Assembly: GCA_015488775.1 (NCBI GenBank)
Contig: WFNF01000122.1
Coordinates: 1 to 39,627 of the forward strand
DNA from: Helicobacteraceae bacterium
GTDB taxonomy: Bacteria > Campylobacterota > Campylobacteria > Campylobacterales > Sulfurimonadaceae
Direction: 5' to 3'
DNA length: 39,627 bases
This document shows positions 4,965-14,885 of this stretch, piece by piece. Numbering within the stretch: the first letter of the stretch is position 1; each line of letters opens with the position of its first letter. Position numbers and translations under genes: made by a program. The notes beneath the pieces are model-generated. The model did no database searches, was not told the DNA's origin, and saw only the letters and a list, made by a program, of their open reading frames with translations.

Positions 4965-6120
4965 TTTTAACCTCACTTTCTGGGAACTTTATATTGATCA
5001 GCTTGATGCTAACCATAACAACTATTACTTGGATTAAAGATGCTAAAATTAGTGCAAAATAGTGGAGTTTATCTATGGAGTTTGCGTTGTAAGCAAGAGT
5101 TGAGATTGCTATAAGAAGTGTAAGTGGCATAGAGTGTGATAATCCCATCATAACAGAGTCTCTTAAACCTAAAGATTGTGTAAAAACCAAAGCTGCCAGA
5201 ACTCTCATAAGTATCATGGCAAATGTGATGATTAAAGATGTTTGAACAAGTCCATCCATTAAAAGTGACTCTAGTTTAAAGCTTGTTCCAATGTGTATGA
5301 AAAAGATAGGTATTAAAAAACCAAAACCAAAACTTCCAAGTTTCTCAGGCAGATGATGTTTATGATCAAAAAATGTGGGGATAAATATACCAGCTATAAA
5401 AGCTCCAAAGGCAAGTTCTAAGTCAAGGTAAAGCATAGCACTAACAAGCATAAAAAACAGACCCATAGATAGGCGTATATCTTGCTCTTTGTTGTCATTA
5501 TCTGGCATTAAGGTTTTTGAAACTTCAGGAAACCACCAAAACAGAAGTCCTAAAACTCTAAATAGAAGTAAAATTAGTGCTAAAAATATAACAAGATGTA
5601 TTAAAGTTGCAATAAGTTCACTACCTATGCCATACTTTAATCCAGGTCCTGAGATAGTTAAAAAAGCTATAGAAACCACTTCACCTATGGCACCAGCTGT
5701 CATAGATAAAGTAAGCCAAGATGTTTTTCCATACTCTTTTACAAGTGCAGCAACTAAGCCAACCGAGATAAGAGGTAGAAGAACTATAAAGATTTTTCCT
5801 AGATGAAAGTAAAGCACAAAAGACAAGGCAAATATATATAACAATGCCAAATAAGAGATAATTTTTCTTAGTAAATCAAGTTTAATGTTGATCAGTTTTT
5901 TGAGGTTAATCTCAGTCCCTGCAATAAACATCAGATATAAAAATCCAACCTCAGCAATTAACTCAAAAAGGTGATCCTCATGTAAAAGCCCTATATAGCC
6001 TAAAAAAGAGCCAAATATAATCTCAACAGGAGTTGTAGGAAGTTTAAAAACCTTAGCAAAGTAGGGGGAAAAGATTACTATAAGTGATAAGGTTACTAAA
6101 AGTGATATATTATCATGCAT
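4957..6120 (-). CDS. Kef/NhaP-like cation:proton antiporter (CPA2), membrane domain only
   Basis: This 387-aa integral membrane protein has about 12-13 hydrophobic segments and the CPA2 start (SPYFAKVFKLPTTPVEIIFG, then a glycine-rich turn and GFLYLMFIAGTEINLKKL). LELAFGAFIAGIFIP and a PIFFIHIGTSF segment are typical of the Na+/H+ exchanger core (PF00999). There is no RCK/TrkA-N domain, so it is the transport module alone. It lies 6 bp after pfkA and overlaps the AMMECR1 gene, so the three are almost certainly co-transcribed. It probably exchanges Na+ or K+ for protons in the inner membrane; ion specificity cannot be read from the sequence. Confidence 0.85.
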   Translation of the reverse strand: MHDNISLLVTLSLIVIFSPYFAKVFKLPTTPVEIIFGSFLGYIGLLHEDHLFELIAEVGFLYLMFIAGTEINLKKLINIKLDLLRKIISYLALLYIFALSFVLYFHLGKIFIVLLPLISVGLVAALVKEYGKTSWLTLSMTAGAIGEVVSIAFLTISGPGLKYGIGSELIATLIHLVIFLALILLLFRVLGLLFWWFPEVSKTLMPDNDNKEQDIRLSMGLFFMLVSAMLYLDLELAFGAFIAGIFIPTFFDHKHHLPEKLGSFGFGFLIPIFFIHIGTSFKLESLLMDGLVQTSLIITFAMILMRVLAALVFTQSLGLRDSVMMGLSHSMPLTLLIAISTLAYNANSIDKLHYFALILASLIQVIVVMVSIKLINIKFPESEVKNV

Positions 6121-7203: not shown

Positions 7204-9264
7204 TTATTTATCTAGTTCCCAAGCTCCAGCTGTAGTAGATAAACAAAAGTAGATCTCAGTACCTTTATCTAAACCATCACTGTTTAGTTTTATATCTCCA
7301 CCAAGCATTATTGCCATCTTTTTGCTAAGAGAAAGTCCTAACCCTGTTCCTTTGTGCTTTTTCTGCATCACATTTTCTACCTGAGTAAAATCGCCAAATA
7401 GTTTGGTTAAATCTTCCTTTTTTATCCCTATACCTGTGTCTTTTACACTGATACAAACTTGATGATTTTTACTCCACAGTTGGATATTTACTGAACCTTT
7501 TTGTGTAAACTTGATGGCATTTGAGAGGAGATTTGTGACTATTTGCTGGAATATTTTTGGATCTGTTTTATATTTTTGTAAAGTGTATCCATCCATTTTA
7601 AGATGAAATGCTAAGCCTTTATCTTCAGCTAAAGGCTGGAGCATATTATAAGCACTTTGTACTATCTTTTTTAAGTTTACTTCTTCAGAATATATCTCCA
7701 TCTTTCCTGCTTCAATTTTTGCAATATCTAAGATGCCATTAATCATCTCAAGAAGATATTGCGCCGCGCTCTCTATATTTGCAATCATCTCCACTTGGTC
7801 TTCTTTTAACTCTTCATACACAAGTATAAACTGAGTAAATCCTATAATAGCATTGAGAGGTGTACGAAGTTCATGAGACATATTTGATATAAAAGCAGAC
7901 TTTGCCCTTGAGGCTTGCATAGTTTTCTCAACAAGCCTAATTCTTTCTAACTGTAAAATAATCATAGATACGATAGAACGATAAAACTTCTCTTCATTCT
8001 CATCTTGCATTTTATCTGCATCTATTTCGATACCTCCTAGATAGACTTTTTCATCATTTTCAAAGTTATCTACATATAGTGCTATAACATTGTTACTCGT
8101 TTTTTGTGTTTGTATAAAATGTAGTTTTTCGTTACCACTGAGTTTTTGCATCTCTTGGATTGATGTACTTATGCACTCATTCTCATCTTTTGTTTGGATG
8201 ATGGTACTAAAAATCTCCGTTAACTCTATAAATCTTTTAAGACGAAGTTTATTTTCCTGTTCTAAAGACTCAAGAGCTCTATTTGTTGTGTCTAAAAGTT
8301 CATTAAAAGCATAAGAGAGTCTTCCTATCTCATCTTGTGAATCGAGGTTTACCTTTTGTGTATAATCTTTTGTCTGCGTAATTAACTCTGCTGAGGAGGT
8401 TAAATGTAGAAGTGGTTGAACAATTTTGCGACTACTTATTATACCTACAGATACGATTATTATAAGTGCTAGAGGCACGATGTAAAGCATCATATAGAGG
8501 AGGTCATATAAAAAACTAAGGGCTATACTTTTATCTACTGCATAAACAGCATAATATTTATTAAGTTGATTTGGCAACCTTTTATAGGTAAGAAGATGCT
8601 CTGATAAAATAGCACTATATGAGTTTTTATTCTCAGATATAGTGAACTTTTGTCTATCACCGATGTAAATAGTTCCTTTAGCATTGATTATCATGCTATG
8701 GATGCCTTTTCTGTGTATCAAAAAATGGTCAAGATTTTCAAGATTATATTTTAGGACAAGAGAACCTAAAAACTTATTTTTATCAAATGAAGCAAATATA
8801 TTTGAGAAAAGATAAAGATTTTTATCTACTATAAAGTACCTTTTTTTAGTAATTAATTTTGAAAAATAGTGGAACTTTGATTCTATTTTATAGTTTTGTG
8901 ATGAGGCAATCTTTGTACCTGTTGTATCCACAACAAAAAGAGAAACATCCATTCCAATATCTTCTTTTTTTTGCTCTAGCAGTCTTGCTATGCGTTTATC
9001 AATATCTTCAGAGACAATATCATCCATCACATCAAGTTGTGATATAAATTGTAACTCTTTATTTAAAGAAAGAAGATGACTATCAATAGTATATATAATT
9101 TTATCTAAAGTTATCGTCTGCTCTTCGATAATTCTTTGTATTATTTTTGCTTCTCCCCAGTAAAGGATATAGAAATAAAAAAGAGCAAAAGGGAGAAGCC
9201 CAACTACTATAAAAGCTAAAAGAAGTTTGTTATAAAGAGTCTTATTAAAGAAAGATTTAATCAT
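7204..9264 (-). CDS. Membrane sensor histidine kinase with periplasmic sensor and HAMP
   Basis: This is a 686-aa hybrid-less kinase. TM1 is at about 12-34, followed by a periplasmic Cache-like sensor (35-250), TM2 (about 256-278), HAMP (279-332) and a GAF-like linker (340-445). The HisKA domain has the phospho-acceptor H464 in SNMSHELRTP. The ATPase domain shows NLLSNAIKF, DTGIGIKKED and KGTGLGLSL. It is the last gene of the ApbE/DUF3570 cluster, and its GAGGAG ribosome binding site lies inside the 22-codon receiver stub that overlaps its start by 8 nt. Its likely partner is the OmpR-type regulator at 15410-16072. The neighbouring small PstS-like protein may present a ligand to it. The signal sensed is unknown. 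Confidence 0.93.
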   Translation of the reverse strand: MIKSFFNKTLYNKLLLAFIVVGLLPFALFYFYILYWGEAKIIQRIIEEQTITLDKIIYTIDSHLLSLNKELQFISQLDVMDDIVSEDIDKRIARLLEQKKEDIGMDVSLFVVDTTGTKIASSQNYKIESKFHYFSKLITKKRYFIVDKNLYLFSNIFASFDKNKFLGSLVLKYNLENLDHFLIHRKGIHSMIINAKGTIYIGDRQKFTISENKNSYSAILSEHLLTYKRLPNQLNKYYAVYAVDKSIALSFLYDLLYMMLYIVPLALIIIVSVGIISSRKIVQPLLHLTSSAELITQTKDYTQKVNLDSQDEIGRLSYAFNELLDTTNRALESLEQENKLRLKRFIELTEIFSTIIQTKDENECISTSIQEMQKLSGNEKLHFIQTQKTSNNVIALYVDNFENDEKVYLGGIEIDADKMQDENEEKFYRSIVSMIILQLERIRLVEKTMQASRAKSAFISNMSHELRTPLNAIIGFTQFILVYEELKEDQVEMIANIESAAQYLLEMINGILDIAKIEAGKMEIYSEEVNLKKIVQSAYNMLQPLAEDKGLAFHLKMDGYTLQKYKTDPKIFQQIVTNLLSNAIKFTQKGSVNIQLWSKNHQVCISVKDTGIGIKKEDLTKLFGDFTQVENVMQKKHKGTGLGLSLSKKMAIMLGGDIKLNSDGLDKGTEIYFCLSTTAGAWELDK

Positions 9265-9325
9265 TTAATCTCTCCTCAACCGTTCTATTTATTAACTCAT
9301 CATCTACTAGTAGTACCTGTGTCAT
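9257..9325 (-). pseudogene. 22-codon stub of a response-regulator receiver domain
   Basis: ATG at 9325 to TAA at 9257 encodes 22 residues that include TQVLLVDDELINRTVEERL. This is the beta-1 strand and acidic pocket (V-L-L-V-D-D-E) plus helix 1 of a CheY-like receiver; the phospho-acceptor Asp and everything after helix 1 are missing. It overlaps the upstream gene by ATGA and the kinase start by 8 nt, so translation can pass along the three genes. Its codons also carry the kinase's GAGGAG. It is probably the remnant of a receiver gene that once sat between binding protein and kinase, now perhaps kept as a coupling leader. Confidence 0.7.
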
Positions 9326-9732
9326 TTAGATTTCCATTTATAGAGTATTTTTAGCTTATTATTTACTTCATTCGAGGGTATGTAGGCTATTGCACCATCA
9401 ATTTTTTCTACAAATGAGATGCTACTTTGGAAAGATTTCATTGTAAGTGGAGGACGATGCCCTAAGTAATGTTCTTTTGTCCAGAAAGATTTTAAACGAT
9501 TTCGTGACATACCTAAAACTTGCTTCTCAAAAGATTTTCGTATCTTACTTGTAGGAGATAGATTTATGGGAATCAAGAGCTTGTCTTGTGACATTTTTTG
9601 TCTCTTTAAAAATATCATTTTCACCTTTGCCCGACTTAGACTCGTCAGTGTAGAGTTTTTCTGCATAACGACTACAAATTCTTCAGCATGACAGATAAAT
9701 TGTATGAGAAAAATATATAGTAACTTTTTCAT
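9322..9732 (-). CDS. Small PstS-like periplasmic binding protein
   Basis: The 136-aa protein has a signal peptide (MKKLLYIFLIQFICHAEEF) and then VVMQKNSTLTSLSRAKVKMI, followed by a Phe-rich helix, NRLKSFWTKEHYLGHRPP and VEKIDGAIAYIPSNEV. This is the pattern of the truncated phosphate-ABC-transporter-like binding proteins that often accompany a porin and a sensor kinase in Proteobacteria and Campylobacterota. It is about half the length of true PstS and no ABC transporter genes are nearby, so a sensory or chaperoning role is more likely than transport. Its start overlaps the porin stop by 1 nt. Confidence 0.75.
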   Translation of the reverse strand: MKKLLYIFLIQFICHAEEFVVVMQKNSTLTSLSRAKVKMIFLKRQKMSQDKLLIPINLSPTSKIRKSFEKQVLGMSRNRLKSFWTKEHYLGHRPPLTMKSFQSSISFVEKIDGAIAYIPSNEVNNKLKILYKWKSK

Positions 9733-10748
9733 TAAAATAGTGCCGAAATAGAGAGTAAAGTTCTATTTTGAGCATCTTCTTGATGCATCTGATACTCAGC
9801 CTTAAATGCCACAGGGTAAACAGGTCGATAGGTATAACCAAGAACAAGAAAACTATCTTTTTGTGTTTGTTTAAGCTGCTGTGACTCATAAGTTTCAAAA
9901 CGAATAGTAGGTAAATGCTTTGGTGTAATTCTATAGAGACCTTCTATGTATCCAGAATAAGGAACTAAGGAGTGATTTTTGTTAAACTGTGTTCCAAGTT
10001 CACCCATAATTTTATAATTATCTGTGTCATACTTTAGTGAAATCAAACTATAGTAAAAATTTTTATCTACAACAAGAGGATCTCTTGTATGAAAATAACC
10101 ACCGTTATACTTTACACTTAAGTCATTATTTGTATATTCTAAACCTAAAGCATAATGCTTATTAACTTTTAAATTATTATACTCATCATCAAAATCTTTG
10201 TTATTTTGTAAAAGAACATCTACTCTTATCTCATTATCACTATAGCTTGTAAATGACAGATCTAAGCCTGTTGTATATTTTGGATATATCATGGAGCTAA
10301 CTAGAGGGTTTGAACTTGTATCTCGTAATACATTTATTGGAATCATATTCCAGTACCCTATTGGAGAGTTAAATTTACCTGCTCTGAATACAAAATTTTC
10401 ATTATAGTTGTAGTCTAGATAAAGTCTCTCAATGTGAAGTTGTGTATTTTTTTGAGTATTTGTATCACCTTGAGTCCATTGTTTTATATAGAACTCTTTA
10501 AACTCCAACTCTGCCATATAAGAGAACTTATCTGCAGAACCATATACTAAAAAAGCTATCTCATCAGCTCTTAACTGATGAAAGTCAGAATCTTCTACAT
10601 TTGTGTAGTCTGCTGAGAGATAACCACCTATGTAAAGAGGTATATCTCCAACTTGTAAACCCTCTCCTAACACATAATCAGAACTCTGTTCATCCTCTGT
10701 AGCCCATATAGAGCTGAAGAGTAGTATCATAATAAATAAAATTTTCAA
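9732..10748 (-). CDS. Outer-membrane porin-like beta-barrel
   Basis: The 338-aa product has a signal peptide (MKILFIMILLFSSIWA). It is rich in alternating aromatic/polar strands and ends in a terminal phenylalanine (SISALF), the usual outer-membrane assembly signal. GGYLSADYTNVEDSDFHQLR, then AEFL-type strands and FRAGKFNSPIGYWN resemble phosphate/anion-type or short-chain porins of the porin O/P type. It lies between apbE and the small binding protein. A porin plus binding protein plus kinase trio is a recurring arrangement and suggests a ligand-import and sensing unit fused to the redox cluster. The substrate is not predictable. Confidence 0.8.
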   Translation of the reverse strand: MKILFIMILLFSSIWATEDEQSSDYVLGEGLQVGDIPLYIGGYLSADYTNVEDSDFHQLRADEIAFLVYGSADKFSYMAELEFKEFYIKQWTQGDTNTQKNTQLHIERLYLDYNYNENFVFRAGKFNSPIGYWNMIPINVLRDTSSNPLVSSMIYPKYTTGLDLSFTSYSDNEIRVDVLLQNNKDFDDEYNNLKVNKHYALGLEYTNNDLSVKYNGGYFHTRDPLVVDKNFYYSLISLKYDTDNYKIMGELGTQFNKNHSLVPYSGYIEGLYRITPKHLPTIRFETYESQQLKQTQKDSFLVLGYTYRPVYPVAFKAEYQMHQEDAQNRTLLSISALF

Positions 10749-10759
10749 ATTATTCCCTT

Positions 10760-11761
10760 TTACAAAGCATACAACTCTATAGCTTTGATATCTAAACTTT
10801 TAAAATTCTCAAAAAGTAAGTTACCCTCTTCTTCTATGGCAATTATAGCAATATTATATCTTTTAGCTAAAGCTCTTAATTTTTCTTTTGGTGTATTAAA
10901 TGCCATAGTGGCTACTGCATCAAGAAGTGTACCATCTTTACCATCTTTTATAAGAGTGATACTACTGTAGTAGTGGTTTTGCGAAGCCGTTTTTATGTCA
11001 AGAATATGGTGATTCTCTTTAGAGCTAATAAAACGCTCATAGTCACCACTCGTAGAGAAAGTAATAGGAGCTTTTGAAGTTTTTACAACAGCAATATTCT
11101 CATCTGTATATGGACTTTTTATGGCTATATTATAATTTTTTCCAAAGGTACATATCTCACCTCCTGCATTTACCAATGCCTTTTTTGCACCTTTATTTCG
11201 TAAATAGGTGATGAGCTTTTCTGCTATAAAACCTTTGCCTATGCCACCAAAGTCAAGTCGCATACCTTTTCTCTTAAGATATACACTCTCTTTATTTACT
11301 ATGAAATCTTTAAAGTTGACAAGCTCTTTTGCCTTTTGAAGCTCTTTTTTAGTAGGTATTTTTTGTGTACTCTTACCAAAGCAATAGGTAGCTTGAGAAA
11401 GTATTCCGATAGTAGGATCAAAAACACCATCAGAAGCTTTTGCCATCTCAAGTGCTTTTGAAAAGAGTTCTCTCTCATCTTGTGTACATATAACTCCGCT
11501 TATACCTGCATTGATATTAACACGGTTAAGTAGTGAGTCCTCTTTGTACGCTGAAAATTTTGCTTCAAACTCTTTAACCAAATCTAGTGCTTCAAAGAGA
11601 ATCTTTTTTGAGAGATCTGCTTCTAAAATGATCTCTGTACTCATCACTTTTGCACGAAGCCCATTCTCAAAAAAAGCCATCTTAAAAATCAAACTTGTAG
11701 TTGAGAGAGGTAAAGACAGCGCTGATGCTATCAACATCATACCAGCTTTTAATATAGTCAT
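10760..11761 (-). CDS. apbE: ApbE: FAD:protein FMN transferase
   Basis: ApbE uses FAD and Mg2+ to attach FMN covalently to a Thr or Ser of an extracytoplasmic target. The motifs are in order: MSTEI (40-44, usually MGT), DFGGIGKG (170-177), NAGGEI (198-203), STSGDYERF (236-244), HHILD (251-255) and DGTLLDAVATMAF (276-288). The long form overlaps the DUF3570 gene by 80 bp but gives a signal-like start (K5, then MMLIASALSLPLSTTSLIF). An internal ATG at 11680, 1 bp after the DUF3570 stop, would give a protein without export signal. I prefer the long form because ApbE works outside the cytoplasm. Adjacent DUF3570 holds a candidate acceptor motif. Confidence 0.93.
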   Translation of the reverse strand: MTILKAGMMLIASALSLPLSTTSLIFKMAFFENGLRAKVMSTEIILEADLSKKILFEALDLVKEFEAKFSAYKEDSLLNRVNINAGISGVICTQDERELFSKALEMAKASDGVFDPTIGILSQATYCFGKSTQKIPTKKELQKAKELVNFKDFIVNKESVYLKRKGMRLDFGGIGKGFIAEKLITYLRNKGAKKALVNAGGEICTFGKNYNIAIKSPYTDENIAVVKTSKAPITFSTSGDYERFISSKENHHILDIKTASQNHYYSSITLIKDGKDGTLLDAVATMAFNTPKEKLRALAKRYNIAIIAIEEEGNLLFENFKSLDIKAIELYAL

Positions 11762-12797
11762 TTTTTGTAGTTTGGTAGTAGTCTATACTTGCTGTCAATT
11801 TATTTTTTCTCCCAACTTTATATATAAATGGAATCCCTATTGTGAAAGAGTCAAAGGCAGACATTCTATAGTCTGTTGCAAAATAGGCATCATTTGCATT
11901 ATAATTTCCTATCTCTTGTACAAAATTAGACTTCGTTTGTGTATAGTAGCGTAGACGCAATCCAGATGTCAATCTATGTGAGAAGTCGTGTAGTTCTTCT
12001 ATGTTTATCGTATGTGAAGAGATGTCCCAATCATCTTTATAGTACCTATAAGAAACATTCATTGCGTTTGCATCATTAAAAAGATAAACACTTTTAAGTG
12101 AATAAGCTTCTCCAGCTCTTTGATCAGGATAGTTCTCAAACTTTGCTATATCACCTTGTAGTACATAGTGATATGGTGAGGATAAAAAACCTTCACTATA
12201 CATATAGGAAAAAACTCCCTGTATAGAAAAAGTTGGTGTGATAAGTTGGTTGATAGAGAGGTCAAGTTTTCTTTCATTGCGATTATCTTTTGGTAATGCT
12301 CTATCAAATACAGGACTCCACTTATCAAAGGATTGGGAAAAGCCTATCCCTAGTGCTGTGTTTTGCTGATTTAACTGACGAACATAGTTCATAAAAAGTG
12401 ATTTTCCATCATAATCCTTCTCAGTTGAGTAATACCCACCTAATGTCAAAGTATTATCCCCATCATCATAAGTAGCCATAAGCGTTGGAGCATAACGAAC
12501 ATCATCAAAATTATTCTCATTCAAAGATGCACCAGTAACTGCATCAACATGACCACCATTGGCACCATTTTTGATACTTGCTGCTGTAATTCCATCTATA
12601 CGCATTTTAAATCCAAGCATCCATTTATGTGATACTTTTTTAAAGAGCGAAAATGTTGGTGAATATACATTTACATTTGCATTGTCATTATAAGTATTAA
12701 ACCCAAAACTCATACTATCTTTGAGGTTGGAAGCAAAACTATTAATCTCTAGTGTTACTAATGAAATGATAGCGAAAAATAGGTATTTTATCTGCAT
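11682..12797 (-). CDS. DUF3570 outer-membrane protein with ApbE-type acceptor motif
   Basis: The 371-aa protein has a signal peptide (cleavage near FAS, 21-23), many amphipathic strands and a terminal Phe (NYKFDF), so it should be an outer-membrane barrel. The family is recognised from the region DSMSFGFNTYNDNANVNVYS and the constant company of DUF4266. Residues 85-91 read DAVTGAS, which fits D-x-x-[ST]-G-A-[ST], the site ApbE flavinylates in NqrC/RnfG-type proteins; S91 would carry FMN. A weaker second copy, DGITAAS, is at 68-74. It overlaps DUF4266 by 10 bp and apbE by up to 80 bp. Function is unknown; a flavin-bearing outer-membrane protein is my inference. Confidence 0.85.
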   Translation of the reverse strand: MQIKYLFFAIISLVTLEINSFASNLKDSMSFGFNTYNDNANVNVYSPTFSLFKKVSHKWMLGFKMRIDGITAASIKNGANGGHVDAVTGASLNENNFDDVRYAPTLMATYDDGDNTLTLGGYYSTEKDYDGKSLFMNYVRQLNQQNTALGIGFSQSFDKWSPVFDRALPKDNRNERKLDLSINQLITPTFSIQGVFSYMYSEGFLSSPYHYVLQGDIAKFENYPDQRAGEAYSLKSVYLFNDANAMNVSYRYYKDDWDISSHTINIEELHDFSHRLTSGLRLRYYTQTKSNFVQEIGNYNANDAYFATDYRMSAFDSFTIGIPFIYKVGRKNKLTASIDYYQTTKNDYIKSWYDVDSISAVFTSLNYKFDF

Positions 12798-13009
12798 CCA
12801 CAGCCTCCTTGAAAAGAACTTTCACCACCAGCACTTGCTTCACGAATAAGGAAAATATGTCCCTCTTGTTCTGCTCTTTCGCTTATTGGAGAAAGGCTCA
12901 TCTTATCTTGTGCAAAATACTCCTTCTCATAAGGCATCACTCGCACGAGTTTATCTGAACAAGCACTTATAAATAGTGCAAAAAGTAGTAATATGGTTAC
13001 TTTTTTCAT
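12788..13009 (-). CDS. DUF4266 lipoprotein with C-terminal Gly-Gly-Cys-Gly-Cys
   Basis: This 73-aa lipoprotein has its lipobox at FISAC (C17). The middle (VRVMPYEKEYFAQDKMSL) and the end (IREASAGGESSFQGGCGCR) match DUF4266, whose conserved tail is S-R/E-E-x-x-x-G-G then G-G-C-G-C. The two C-terminal cysteines (C70, C72) could bind metal, form a disulfide handled by the thioredoxin encoded just upstream, or carry a modification. It sits between the thioredoxin (2 bp away) and DUF3570 (10 bp overlap). In other bacteria this family is usually found with DUF3570 and ApbE, so it is probably a small accessory of the same envelope complex. Confidence 0.88.
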   Translation of the reverse strand: MKKVTILLLFALFISACSDKLVRVMPYEKEYFAQDKMSLSPISERAEQEGHIFLIREASAGGESSFQGGCGCR

Positions 13010-13011
13010 CT

Positions 13012-13506
13012 CTACTTTCCTAATAATTTTTTGATAGTTTGCTTGAGCTTTGAAATGCCATCAGTATCAAGACTTCCAATATAAACATCAACGATTTTAC
13101 CATTTTGATTTATTAGAAATGAAGAGGGCATACCTGGACACTGATAGGCTTTTGGTAAGCTCTTTTGTGAATCATAAAGAGTTTTCAAACTTCTTTTTGC
13201 ATCCACTTTAGATAGAAAATCTATCCCGTTTTTTGCTTCATTATCTATGTTTGCAAGCACTATTTCAAACTCTGATCTTGAAAACTCACTTTGGAGTTGT
13301 ACAAACAGAGGCATCTCCTCTTGACAACCACTACACCAACTTGCCCACATGTTTAACAAAACAACCTTACCATGAAGGCTTTCACTTTTAAGGCTTTTAT
13401 TTTGTGCATAAATATCTGGTAATTCAAATTTTACTGCATCATCCCCAACTCGTGGTGCTGCAAAAAGTGCAATTGATAGTAAAAATATACTTAGTAATTT
13501 TTTCAT
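13012..13506 (-). CDS. TlpA-like periplasmic thioredoxin
   Basis: The 164-aa protein has a signal peptide (MKKLLSIFLLSIALFAA), then the TlpA/ResA/AhpC-TSA core with VVLLNMWASWCSGCQEEMP. The active cysteines are C58 and C61 (WCSGC). The cis-Pro segment is GMPSSFLINQNGKIV. It should act in the periplasm, reducing or resolving disulfides. The targets in this operon could be the two CxxCH cytochromes immediately upstream, which need reduced cysteines for heme attachment, or the Cys-Gly-Cys tail of DUF4266. The thioredoxin gene is 9 bp from the diheme gene and 2 bp from DUF4266. Confidence 0.9.
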   Translation of the reverse strand: MKKLLSIFLLSIALFAAPRVGDDAVKFELPDIYAQNKSLKSESLHGKVVLLNMWASWCSGCQEEMPLFVQLQSEFSRSEFEIVLANIDNEAKNGIDFLSKVDAKRSLKTLYDSQKSLPKAYQCPGMPSSFLINQNGKIVDVYIGSLDTDGISKLKQTIKKLLGK

Positions 13507-13515
13507 TTTATTTCC

Positions 13516-14097
13516 TTATTTACATTGATTTTGATGTAGTTGAGCATATAAGACAGATGTAAATCCACCTTTTATATGACAAGCATTACATGAAATTCTA
13601 TTAGATCTATTTTGTCTATTGTTTATGTCATAATCATCAGTTGTAAAATTATGAGTAAAATTTGACACGGCAAAAACAGTTCCATTTTTATCTTCTATTT
13701 GTACATGAAATGTCTCAGCACTAAGAGGAAAGTGTGTTCTAGAAAGAATAAATAGATTACCTTTGGCTTTATAACCTTTAGAATTTACATCCTCATAATC
13801 TTTTGAACTATACACAGTGTTAAAATTTGCATCGAGAAACTTAACAACAAGATTCCCTCCACAAACATTATTTAGATCATCTTCATTACTAATATTTGAA
13901 GACTTGTAAAGTGTCCCGCCAACAATAAGATGTTTATTCTCATTAAGATCTACATTGTGACAAGCCAGACAATCTCTTCCTTGAAAGTGCCAACCTTTTA
14001 CGGTCGTTGCTGCACTATTATTACCCTCTTCAGCCTCACAAGCACTCATAAAGATGATAATGAGTATTAAAAAGAGATGCTGTATCGTTTTTTTCAT
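13516..14097 (-). CDS. Diheme c-type cytochrome lipoprotein
   Basis: This is a 193-aa lipoprotein with its lipobox at FMSAC (C20) and two heme-binding CxxCH motifs: CLACH (43-47) and CNACH (170-174). Between them is a beta-rich domain that starts with IVGGTLYKS and contains FLDANFNTVYSSKDYED. The arrangement (heme, G-G-T-L-Y strand, Ig-like domain, heme) is shared with the first part of the next gene upstream (CAQCH then GATIFK), so the two are probably distant paralogues. It is membrane-anchored on the periplasmic or outer face and should pass electrons. It lies 8 bp after the triheme gene and 9 bp before the thioredoxin gene. Confidence 0.82.
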   Translation of the reverse strand: MKKTIQHLFLILIIIFMSACEAEEGNNSAATTVKGWHFQGRDCLACHNVDLNENKHLIVGGTLYKSSNISNEDDLNNVCGGNLVVKFLDANFNTVYSSKDYEDVNSKGYKAKGNLFILSRTHFPLSAETFHVQIEDKNGTVFAVSNFTHNFTTDDYDINNRQNRSNRISCNACHIKGGFTSVLYAQLHQNQCK

Positions 14098-14105
14098 AAT
14101 TTCTC

Positions 14106-14885
14106 CTAATTATTAAGTGCACCAGCACTAATCCAATCTTTTATAGTAGTGTATTGAGTATCGCTTAGCCTCTTTCCACCACCGTGACTCACTTTTGCTG
14201 CACCTTTTTGTATAAGTCTTGAGCTTGATGGTGATGTTGTGCTTACCCGTTGCTTTACTCTCGAATATGTAAAGGTATTGTGGCAATTTGTACACTTATT
14301 TAATATAGGTGAAATATCTCTAGCAAAAGATTTTGCCACTGTTGTAGTCTTAGCCCCAGTTGAAGTTGAAGTTGTAGCTGTTTGAGTTTGAGTTTGAGTT
14401 TGAGTTTGAGTTTGAGTTTTCCCAGCAGTTGTTAATTGTGCTGCAAGAGTATACTTAAATGAGACTATACGACCTGGTGCATTATTTTTACCTGTTGCAG
14501 TATGACATCTATTACAATCAAAACGAGAAGCATCATGTGAATCTGTTACAGATGAATTAATAACAACACCTTGTGGATCGATTACTTGTGCTGTATATTT
14601 TAAAATACCTGAGTTAAATATTGAGTTAGCATTTCCAGAACCACGACCAGTACTGTAATTTATCTGCTCACCACTTTGTGCTAAGACTAAACGAAGTGAG
14701 TAGTTAGTTGCTGCTTGTGAAGTGCTGCTAGGGGCATCTAAGGTTTTAAAAATAGTTGCACCTGATGTAAATGAGTGGCACTGTGCACAGCTCACTCCTT
14801 GGTTATGAGGAGATAAGCTTTCGTCCCCACATCCTGTTAGTAGTAGTGCCATTATAATAACACTGAGTAAGTATAATAATTTCAT
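14106..14885 (-). CDS. Triheme c-type cytochrome lipoprotein with Thr-Gln repeat
   Basis: This 259-aa lipoprotein has its lipobox at LLTGC (C19) and three CxxCH sites: CAQCH (33-37), CNRCH (124-128) and CTNCH (198-202). The first two hemes belong to a domain like that of the diheme neighbour. The third lies in a C-terminal mono-heme domain (ARDISPILNKCTNCHN, ending TIKDWISAGA) of the type found in many c-type lipoproteins. The two are joined by a flexible TQTQTQ linker made by a hexanucleotide repeat. AAGGGAG precedes the ATG. It is the first gene of the compact operon, and two regulatory signals lie directly upstream. Likely role: electron transfer in the envelope. Confidence 0.85.
   Translation of the reverse strand: MKLLYLLSVIIMALLLTGCGDESLSPHNQGVSCAQCHSFTSGATIFKTLDAPSSTSQAATNYSLRLVLAQSGEQINYSTGRGSGNANSIFNSGILKYTAQVIDPQGVVINSSVTDSHDASRFDCNRCHTATGKNNAPGRIVSFKYTLAAQLTTAGKTQTQTQTQTQTQTATTSTSTGAKTTTVAKSFARDISPILNKCTNCHNTFTYSRVKQRVSTTSPSSSRLIQKGAAKVSHGGGKRLSDTQYTTIKDWISAGALNN
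14381..14416. repeat. Hexanucleotide tandem repeat (TTTGAG x6)
   Basis: Six perfect copies of TTTGAG lie inside the triheme cytochrome gene and encode a Thr-Gln linker between its heme domains. Changes in copy number by slippage would alter linker length by two residues per unit without breaking frame. Confidence 0.9.

Follow-up and report, generated by a model that had tools for sequence, protein, structure and literature searches.

Does the outer-membrane barrel encoded beside apbE in a member of the Helicobacteraceae (contig WFNF01000122.1) carry covalently bound FMN, and in which compartment would the flavin be attached? A preliminary description of this locus, made from the sequence alone, noted a motif of the kind modified by ApbE in a DUF3570 protein and proposed that it is a flavinylation site. 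The window, i.e., the whole stretch of 39,627 nucleotides analyzed here, contains the following relevant features:

9732..10748, (-), another protein of likely outer-membrane type, 338 aa, no Pfam family
10760..11680, (-), apbE (FAD:protein FMN transferase), 306 aa from the likely start at ATG 11680, lacking a signal peptide
11682..12797, (-), DUF3570 protein, 371 aa; predicted signal peptide (about residues 1-23) and 16-strand outer-membrane barrel
12525..12545, (-), predicted FMN site 2, DAVTGAS, residues 85-91; fits D-x-x-[ST]-G-A-[ST], predicted FMN on S91
12576..12596, (-), possible FMN site 1, DGITAAS, residues 68-74; G-to-A variant, candidate Ser S74
12788..13009, (-), DUF4266 small lipoprotein, end GGCGCR (C-x-C); Pfam PF14086, E 8.8e-14
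13012..13506, (-), TlpA/ResA-like thioredoxin, signal peptide, WCSGC; Pfam Redoxin, E 3.2e-20
13516..14097, (-), dihaem c-type cytochrome lipoprotein, from CxxCH motifs (CLACH, CNACH)
14106..14885, (-), trihaem c-type cytochrome lipoprotein, from CxxCH motifs (CAQCH, CNRCH, CTNCH); weak Cytochrome_C7 match

Translation of the 11682..12797 ORF confirms both motifs at the residues first reported, and positions 12525-12596 cover the two. The ORF belongs to DUF3570 (Pfam PF12094, E 2.5e-50, 172 bits versus a cut-off of 25), and its N-terminal hydropathy (indicating a signal peptide), 16 strands and C-terminal Phe predict an outer-membrane beta-barrel. An AlphaFold2 model computed from an alignment of only 6 sequences (pLDDT 75.7, pTM 0.75) contains the 16 barrel strands. 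A sequence search for a solved structure matching the protein found none. Searched with Foldseek, the model retrieves OmpG and other porins with probability 1.00 and a TM-score of about 0.45. These porins (PDB 2wvp, 2iwv) share with the model a barrel with short turns on one side, but the resemblance is distant (query-normalized TM-score 0.44-0.49, sequence identity 10-14%) and they contain no flavin.

The porin fold, together with the degeneration of site 2 in some family members, would suit a porin-like channel in which the motifs are structural and, in the lineage of the window, unflavinylated. We consider this very improbable, because a member of the family has been shown directly to be flavinylated at both sites (PMC8238504), and because adjacency to apbE is conserved and the ApbE motifs are kept. 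Meheust et al. 2021 identify DUF3570 as an ApbE substrate, with 228 ApbE-associated members bearing two conserved [ST]GA[ST] motifs, and in the Chlorobium luteolum protein the flavin disappears only when both serines are replaced (PMC8238504). The central idea of the preliminary description, namely that the DUF3570 outer-membrane barrel encoded next to apbE has an FMN site of the ApbE type, is thus right, yet it had already been published for the family; its statement that known ApbE targets are mostly inner-membrane or periplasmic overlooks this one. It is very likely that the protein forms a barrel in the outer membrane and carries one or two covalently bound flavins.

Judged against the published criterion of two [ST]GA[ST] motifs, site 2 fits, while site 1 reads TAAS and is a G-to-A variant. 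Neither pattern is common by chance: D..[ST]GA[ST] appears in 0.35% and D..[ST]AA[ST] in 0.29% of composition shuffles of the protein, and of the 620 other ORFs with 150 aa or more in the same loci (187,048 residues), 5 contain the canonical motif. Lack of conservation of the motif in the family had been named as one outcome that would count against the idea; both sites instead keep their position across it.

For this comparison we used 79 distinct DUF3570 proteins, mostly from Campylobacterota. The 32 that form the clade of the window (clade A) were originally picked out by their AAS motif, so a tree computed without the motif region provides an independent check; in that tree a branch with support 99/98 separates them from the rest, and they are monophyletic. 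Seven extra members, found from the Pfam match alone, come from a separate phylum-level group, including one Hydrogenothermaceae record, and show the same site pattern, which extends the clade to 39 sequences in two phylum-level groups. Throughout these, D68, A73 and S74 of site 1 are invariant (39/39), while position 72 is Ala in 37, Ser in two and Gly in none. At site 2, D85, A90 and a Ser or Thr at position 91 are each found in 38 of 39. The upstream site, ranked as the weaker of the two in the preliminary description, is therefore the better conserved one in the clade. Among the 47 other rows, the distant clade, 31 contain three canonical motifs, near residues 67, 78 and 180, and a canonical SGAS lies at the position of site 1. 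The expectation that the motif would be conserved mainly where apbE is adjacent proved too simple, as canonical motifs persist in some relatives whose apbE lies at another place in the genome. In one locus from a metagenome-assembled genome, L021, the DUF4266 gene (5783-5995) looks frameshifted, and site 2 of the DUF3570 protein there is degenerate too (DAQATAS).

We predict FMN on S91 with high confidence; for S74 the chances appear evenly balanced. A serious, if less than even, possibility is that only site 2 is flavinylated, site 1 having lost its FMN upon the Gly to Ala change and its serine being retained for structure at the end of strand 3. The missing Gly in all 39 sequences and the modeled placement of residues 68-72 within strand 3 are in line with this. 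However, the distant clade has its canonical SGAS at this very position, and Gly to Ala reduces rather than abolishes flavinylation in a tested protein, a different ApbE substrate whose G-to-A mutants were still about 50% flavinylated (PMC12052999). Moreover, one clade member (L033) has lost site 2 (SASTGEE) but keeps S74 and an adjoining ApbE with its conserved motifs, so site 1 may suffice. Flavinylation of S91 alone would be compatible with the remaining steps of the mechanism proposed below.

The model also bears on where the flavins would lie. Seven turns of at most 4 residues occupy one side of the barrel, and the long loops (73-98, 163-172, 203-225, 288-314 and 344-358) are on the opposite side. 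Both sites are within or at the start of the 26-residue loop 73-98 between strands 3 and 4, which is modeled at pLDDT <50, and the third motif of the distant clade aligns with the region of loop 163-172. The long loops of outer-membrane barrels usually face outward. On this rule, which is established knowledge rather than a result of our computation, the loop with S74 and S91 is probably turned toward the cell exterior or tucked into the pore, and an extracellular location of the sites is fairly likely as modeled. The preliminary description had envisaged a periplasm-facing loop accessible to ApbE, for which we find no support, since both sites are modeled on the side of the long loops and the partner ApbE is leaderless.

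The apbE product is a clear family member (Pfam PF02424, E 1e-57, 196 bits), and its alignment contains the motifs DxGGIGKG, STSGDYER, HHIL and LDAxAT. The gene does adjoin that for DUF3570, as first noted, but the reported overlap between them does not hold up. An overlap of 80 nt depends on an upstream ATG at 11761, while the start kept in relatives is ATG 11680, 1 nt past the DUF3570 stop; no relative shares an overlap of that length, and we reject it as probably a start-codon artefact. In clade A the conserved start yields ApbE N-termini such as MALFEKALEAKVMST.

We assessed signal peptides by hydropathy and by the limits set by stop codons rather than with SignalP. Among partner ApbEs of clade A, the core is preceded by 11-19 residues in 23 of 29, and immediately upstream lie stop codons or the DUF3570 gene; in 27 of 29 the hydropathy of the N-terminus stays below 2. 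The two exceptions, the ApbEs of the window and of L094, stem from upstream extensions that are absent in close relatives. More widely, DUF3570-linked ApbEs mostly have 9-19 residues of low hydropathy before the conserved core, while the N-termini of the DUF3570, thioredoxin and DUF4266 proteins have hydropathies of 2.2-3.9 in nearly all cases. DUF3570-paired ApbEs are similarly leaderless in the distant clade and in the second phylum-level group. In two genomes (G593, G627) apbE is not adjacent to the DUF3570 gene and the single ApbE is still leaderless; two fragmented assemblies that encode DUF3570 (G623, G670) gave no ApbE match. The genome of the window has a third ApbE, beside an FMN_bind protein, with a clear signal peptide, and the same contrast between leaderless and signal-bearing ApbEs is found in G358, G422, G401, G519 and G615. 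This third ApbE of the window's genome lies on contig C150 (L149); its FMN_bind neighbor carries ITGAT, and the pair probably forms a separate flavinylation system.

From these sequences a cytosolic partner ApbE appears probable, and an ApbE lacking a signal peptide would probably attach FMN in the cytosol before export. The standard published picture would instead place ApbE in the periplasm, reached by an unrecognized export route or start codon, where it would modify DUF3570 before or after assembly, with electrons delivered by DsbD and thioredoxin as described by Meheust et al. Most characterized ApbEs acting on secreted targets are indeed exported (PMC12052999), and the longest apbE ORF in the window begins with a hydrophobic stretch (hydropathy 2.17) that might act as a signal if translation began at the upstream ATG. 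However, a relative 87% identical (L018) does not share this extension, nearly all relatives have stop codons or the DUF3570 gene so close to the start that a signal peptide would not fit, and the FMN_bind-linked or unlinked ApbEs of the same genomes do bear clear signals, so we regard a periplasmic partner as unlikely. A tblastn search of plasmids gave matches from Vibrio and Hymenobacter only. The Vibrio cassette includes DsbD and its ApbE is leaderless; the Hymenobacter cassettes encode an ApbE with a signal peptide, a point in favor of periplasmic modification, from which it follows that attachment before export cannot be universal.

The remaining neighbors suggest what the flavins may be for. 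The published cassette consists of ApbE, DUF3570, DUF4266 and a thioredoxin-like protein, in some cases joined by DsbD, which is missing from 316 published DUF3570 clusters (PMC8238504). The window encodes the first four side by side, and no DsbD family was detected among the subset of its ORFs scanned with Pfam. The DUF4266 gene overlaps the DUF3570 start, with an overlap of 12 nt in most relatives, and the thioredoxin has NCBIfam ResA/TlpA matches that are partial and below the cut-off. In most clade A loci with sufficient flanking sequence, the genes for two lipoproteins, one dihaem and one tri- to tetrahaem, lie upstream of that for the thioredoxin; the passages of Meheust et al. 2021 considered here (PMC8238504) do not report this set for DUF3570 clusters. 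Homologues of the 9732-10748 ORF adjoin the cassette in several relatives, but the linkage is limited to near relatives and this ORF is perhaps outside the core cassette.

The trihaem lipoprotein of the window has a TQTQTQ linker and a stretch, FTSGATIF, that adjoins its first haem site; we rejected this stretch as an extra FMN site because it contains no Asp and SGAT is not conserved. A second DUF3570 cassette occurs in the same genome (contig C20, L031), with its own apbE, DUF4266, thioredoxin and dihaem lipoprotein and with the motifs DAISAAS and DAVTGAS. In two other loci (L048:5007-6215 and L145:2781-3989) a WD40-propeller lipoprotein with DTTTGAS or DSVSGAS lies between DUF3570 and a leaderless apbE. 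The DUF3570 motifs are degenerate there, and the propeller protein is a candidate new ApbE substrate. Upstream of the L048 cassette, a 943-aa lipoprotein (8153-10981) also carries DSTSGAS.

Among known systems, the Chlorobium luteolum cassette (Meheust et al. 2021) is closest: it has the same Pfam family with two adjacent motif sites, as well as apbE, a DUF4266 C-x-C lipoprotein and a thioredoxin-like partner. It differs in that its site 1 is xGAS whereas the window has xAAS, and the window's cassette, unlike that of Chlorobium luteolum, includes two c-type cytochrome lipoproteins. On the window's side of this comparison, the ApbE is leaderless. NqrC/RnfG-type FMN_bind proteins share the D-x-x-[ST]-G-A-[ST] motif and the ApbE chemistry but have another fold and another location, and their exported ApbE has a signal peptide. 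In Klebsiella pneumoniae a cytosolic ApbE, likewise lacking a signal peptide, serves a soluble fumarate reductase (PMC12052999); that target remains cytosolic, whereas the target in the window is an outer-membrane barrel with a signal peptide.

Taken as a whole, we slightly favor an FMN-bearing barrel that is loaded in the cytosol before export and acts in an outer-membrane electron-transfer module; surface exposure (from the model) and flavinylation before export are what we infer. We likewise infer the order of events and the path and direction of electrons. The leaderless ApbE would attach FMN, derived from cytosolic FAD, to S91, and probably S74 too, of the unfolded DUF3570 precursor in the cytosol. 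The flavinylated precursor would then be exported by Sec and assembled into the outer-membrane barrel. Flavins at the surface or in the lumen could serve as redox groups, passing electrons to or from the lipid-anchored cytochromes encoded alongside and also a thiol relay formed by thioredoxin and DUF4266, the whole assembly making up the module. A role in electron transfer is likely. The more specific proposal, that a cytosolic ApbE modifies an outer-membrane precursor which passes Sec with its FMN on and displays the flavin(s) in extracellular barrel loops, is tentative and falls just short of even odds.

What this locus adds to the published picture of DUF3570 is a variant: its first site ends in AAS, its cassette includes cytochromes, both sites are predicted to lie on the outer side, and its ApbE is leaderless, which makes attachment before export a testable idea. 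Should ApbE prove cytosolic and the sites extracellular, loading of the cofactor would precede export, with no need for FAD in the periplasm, and the flavins would be placed at the cell surface for electron exchange. Attaching the cofactor in this order would be unusual for a redox protein that works outside the cytosol, and the target site, xAAS, would be a relaxed one. In Sulfurimonas-like bacteria the cassette with cytochromes, found in two phyla, is a concrete candidate for an outer-membrane electron module built on flavin and haem.
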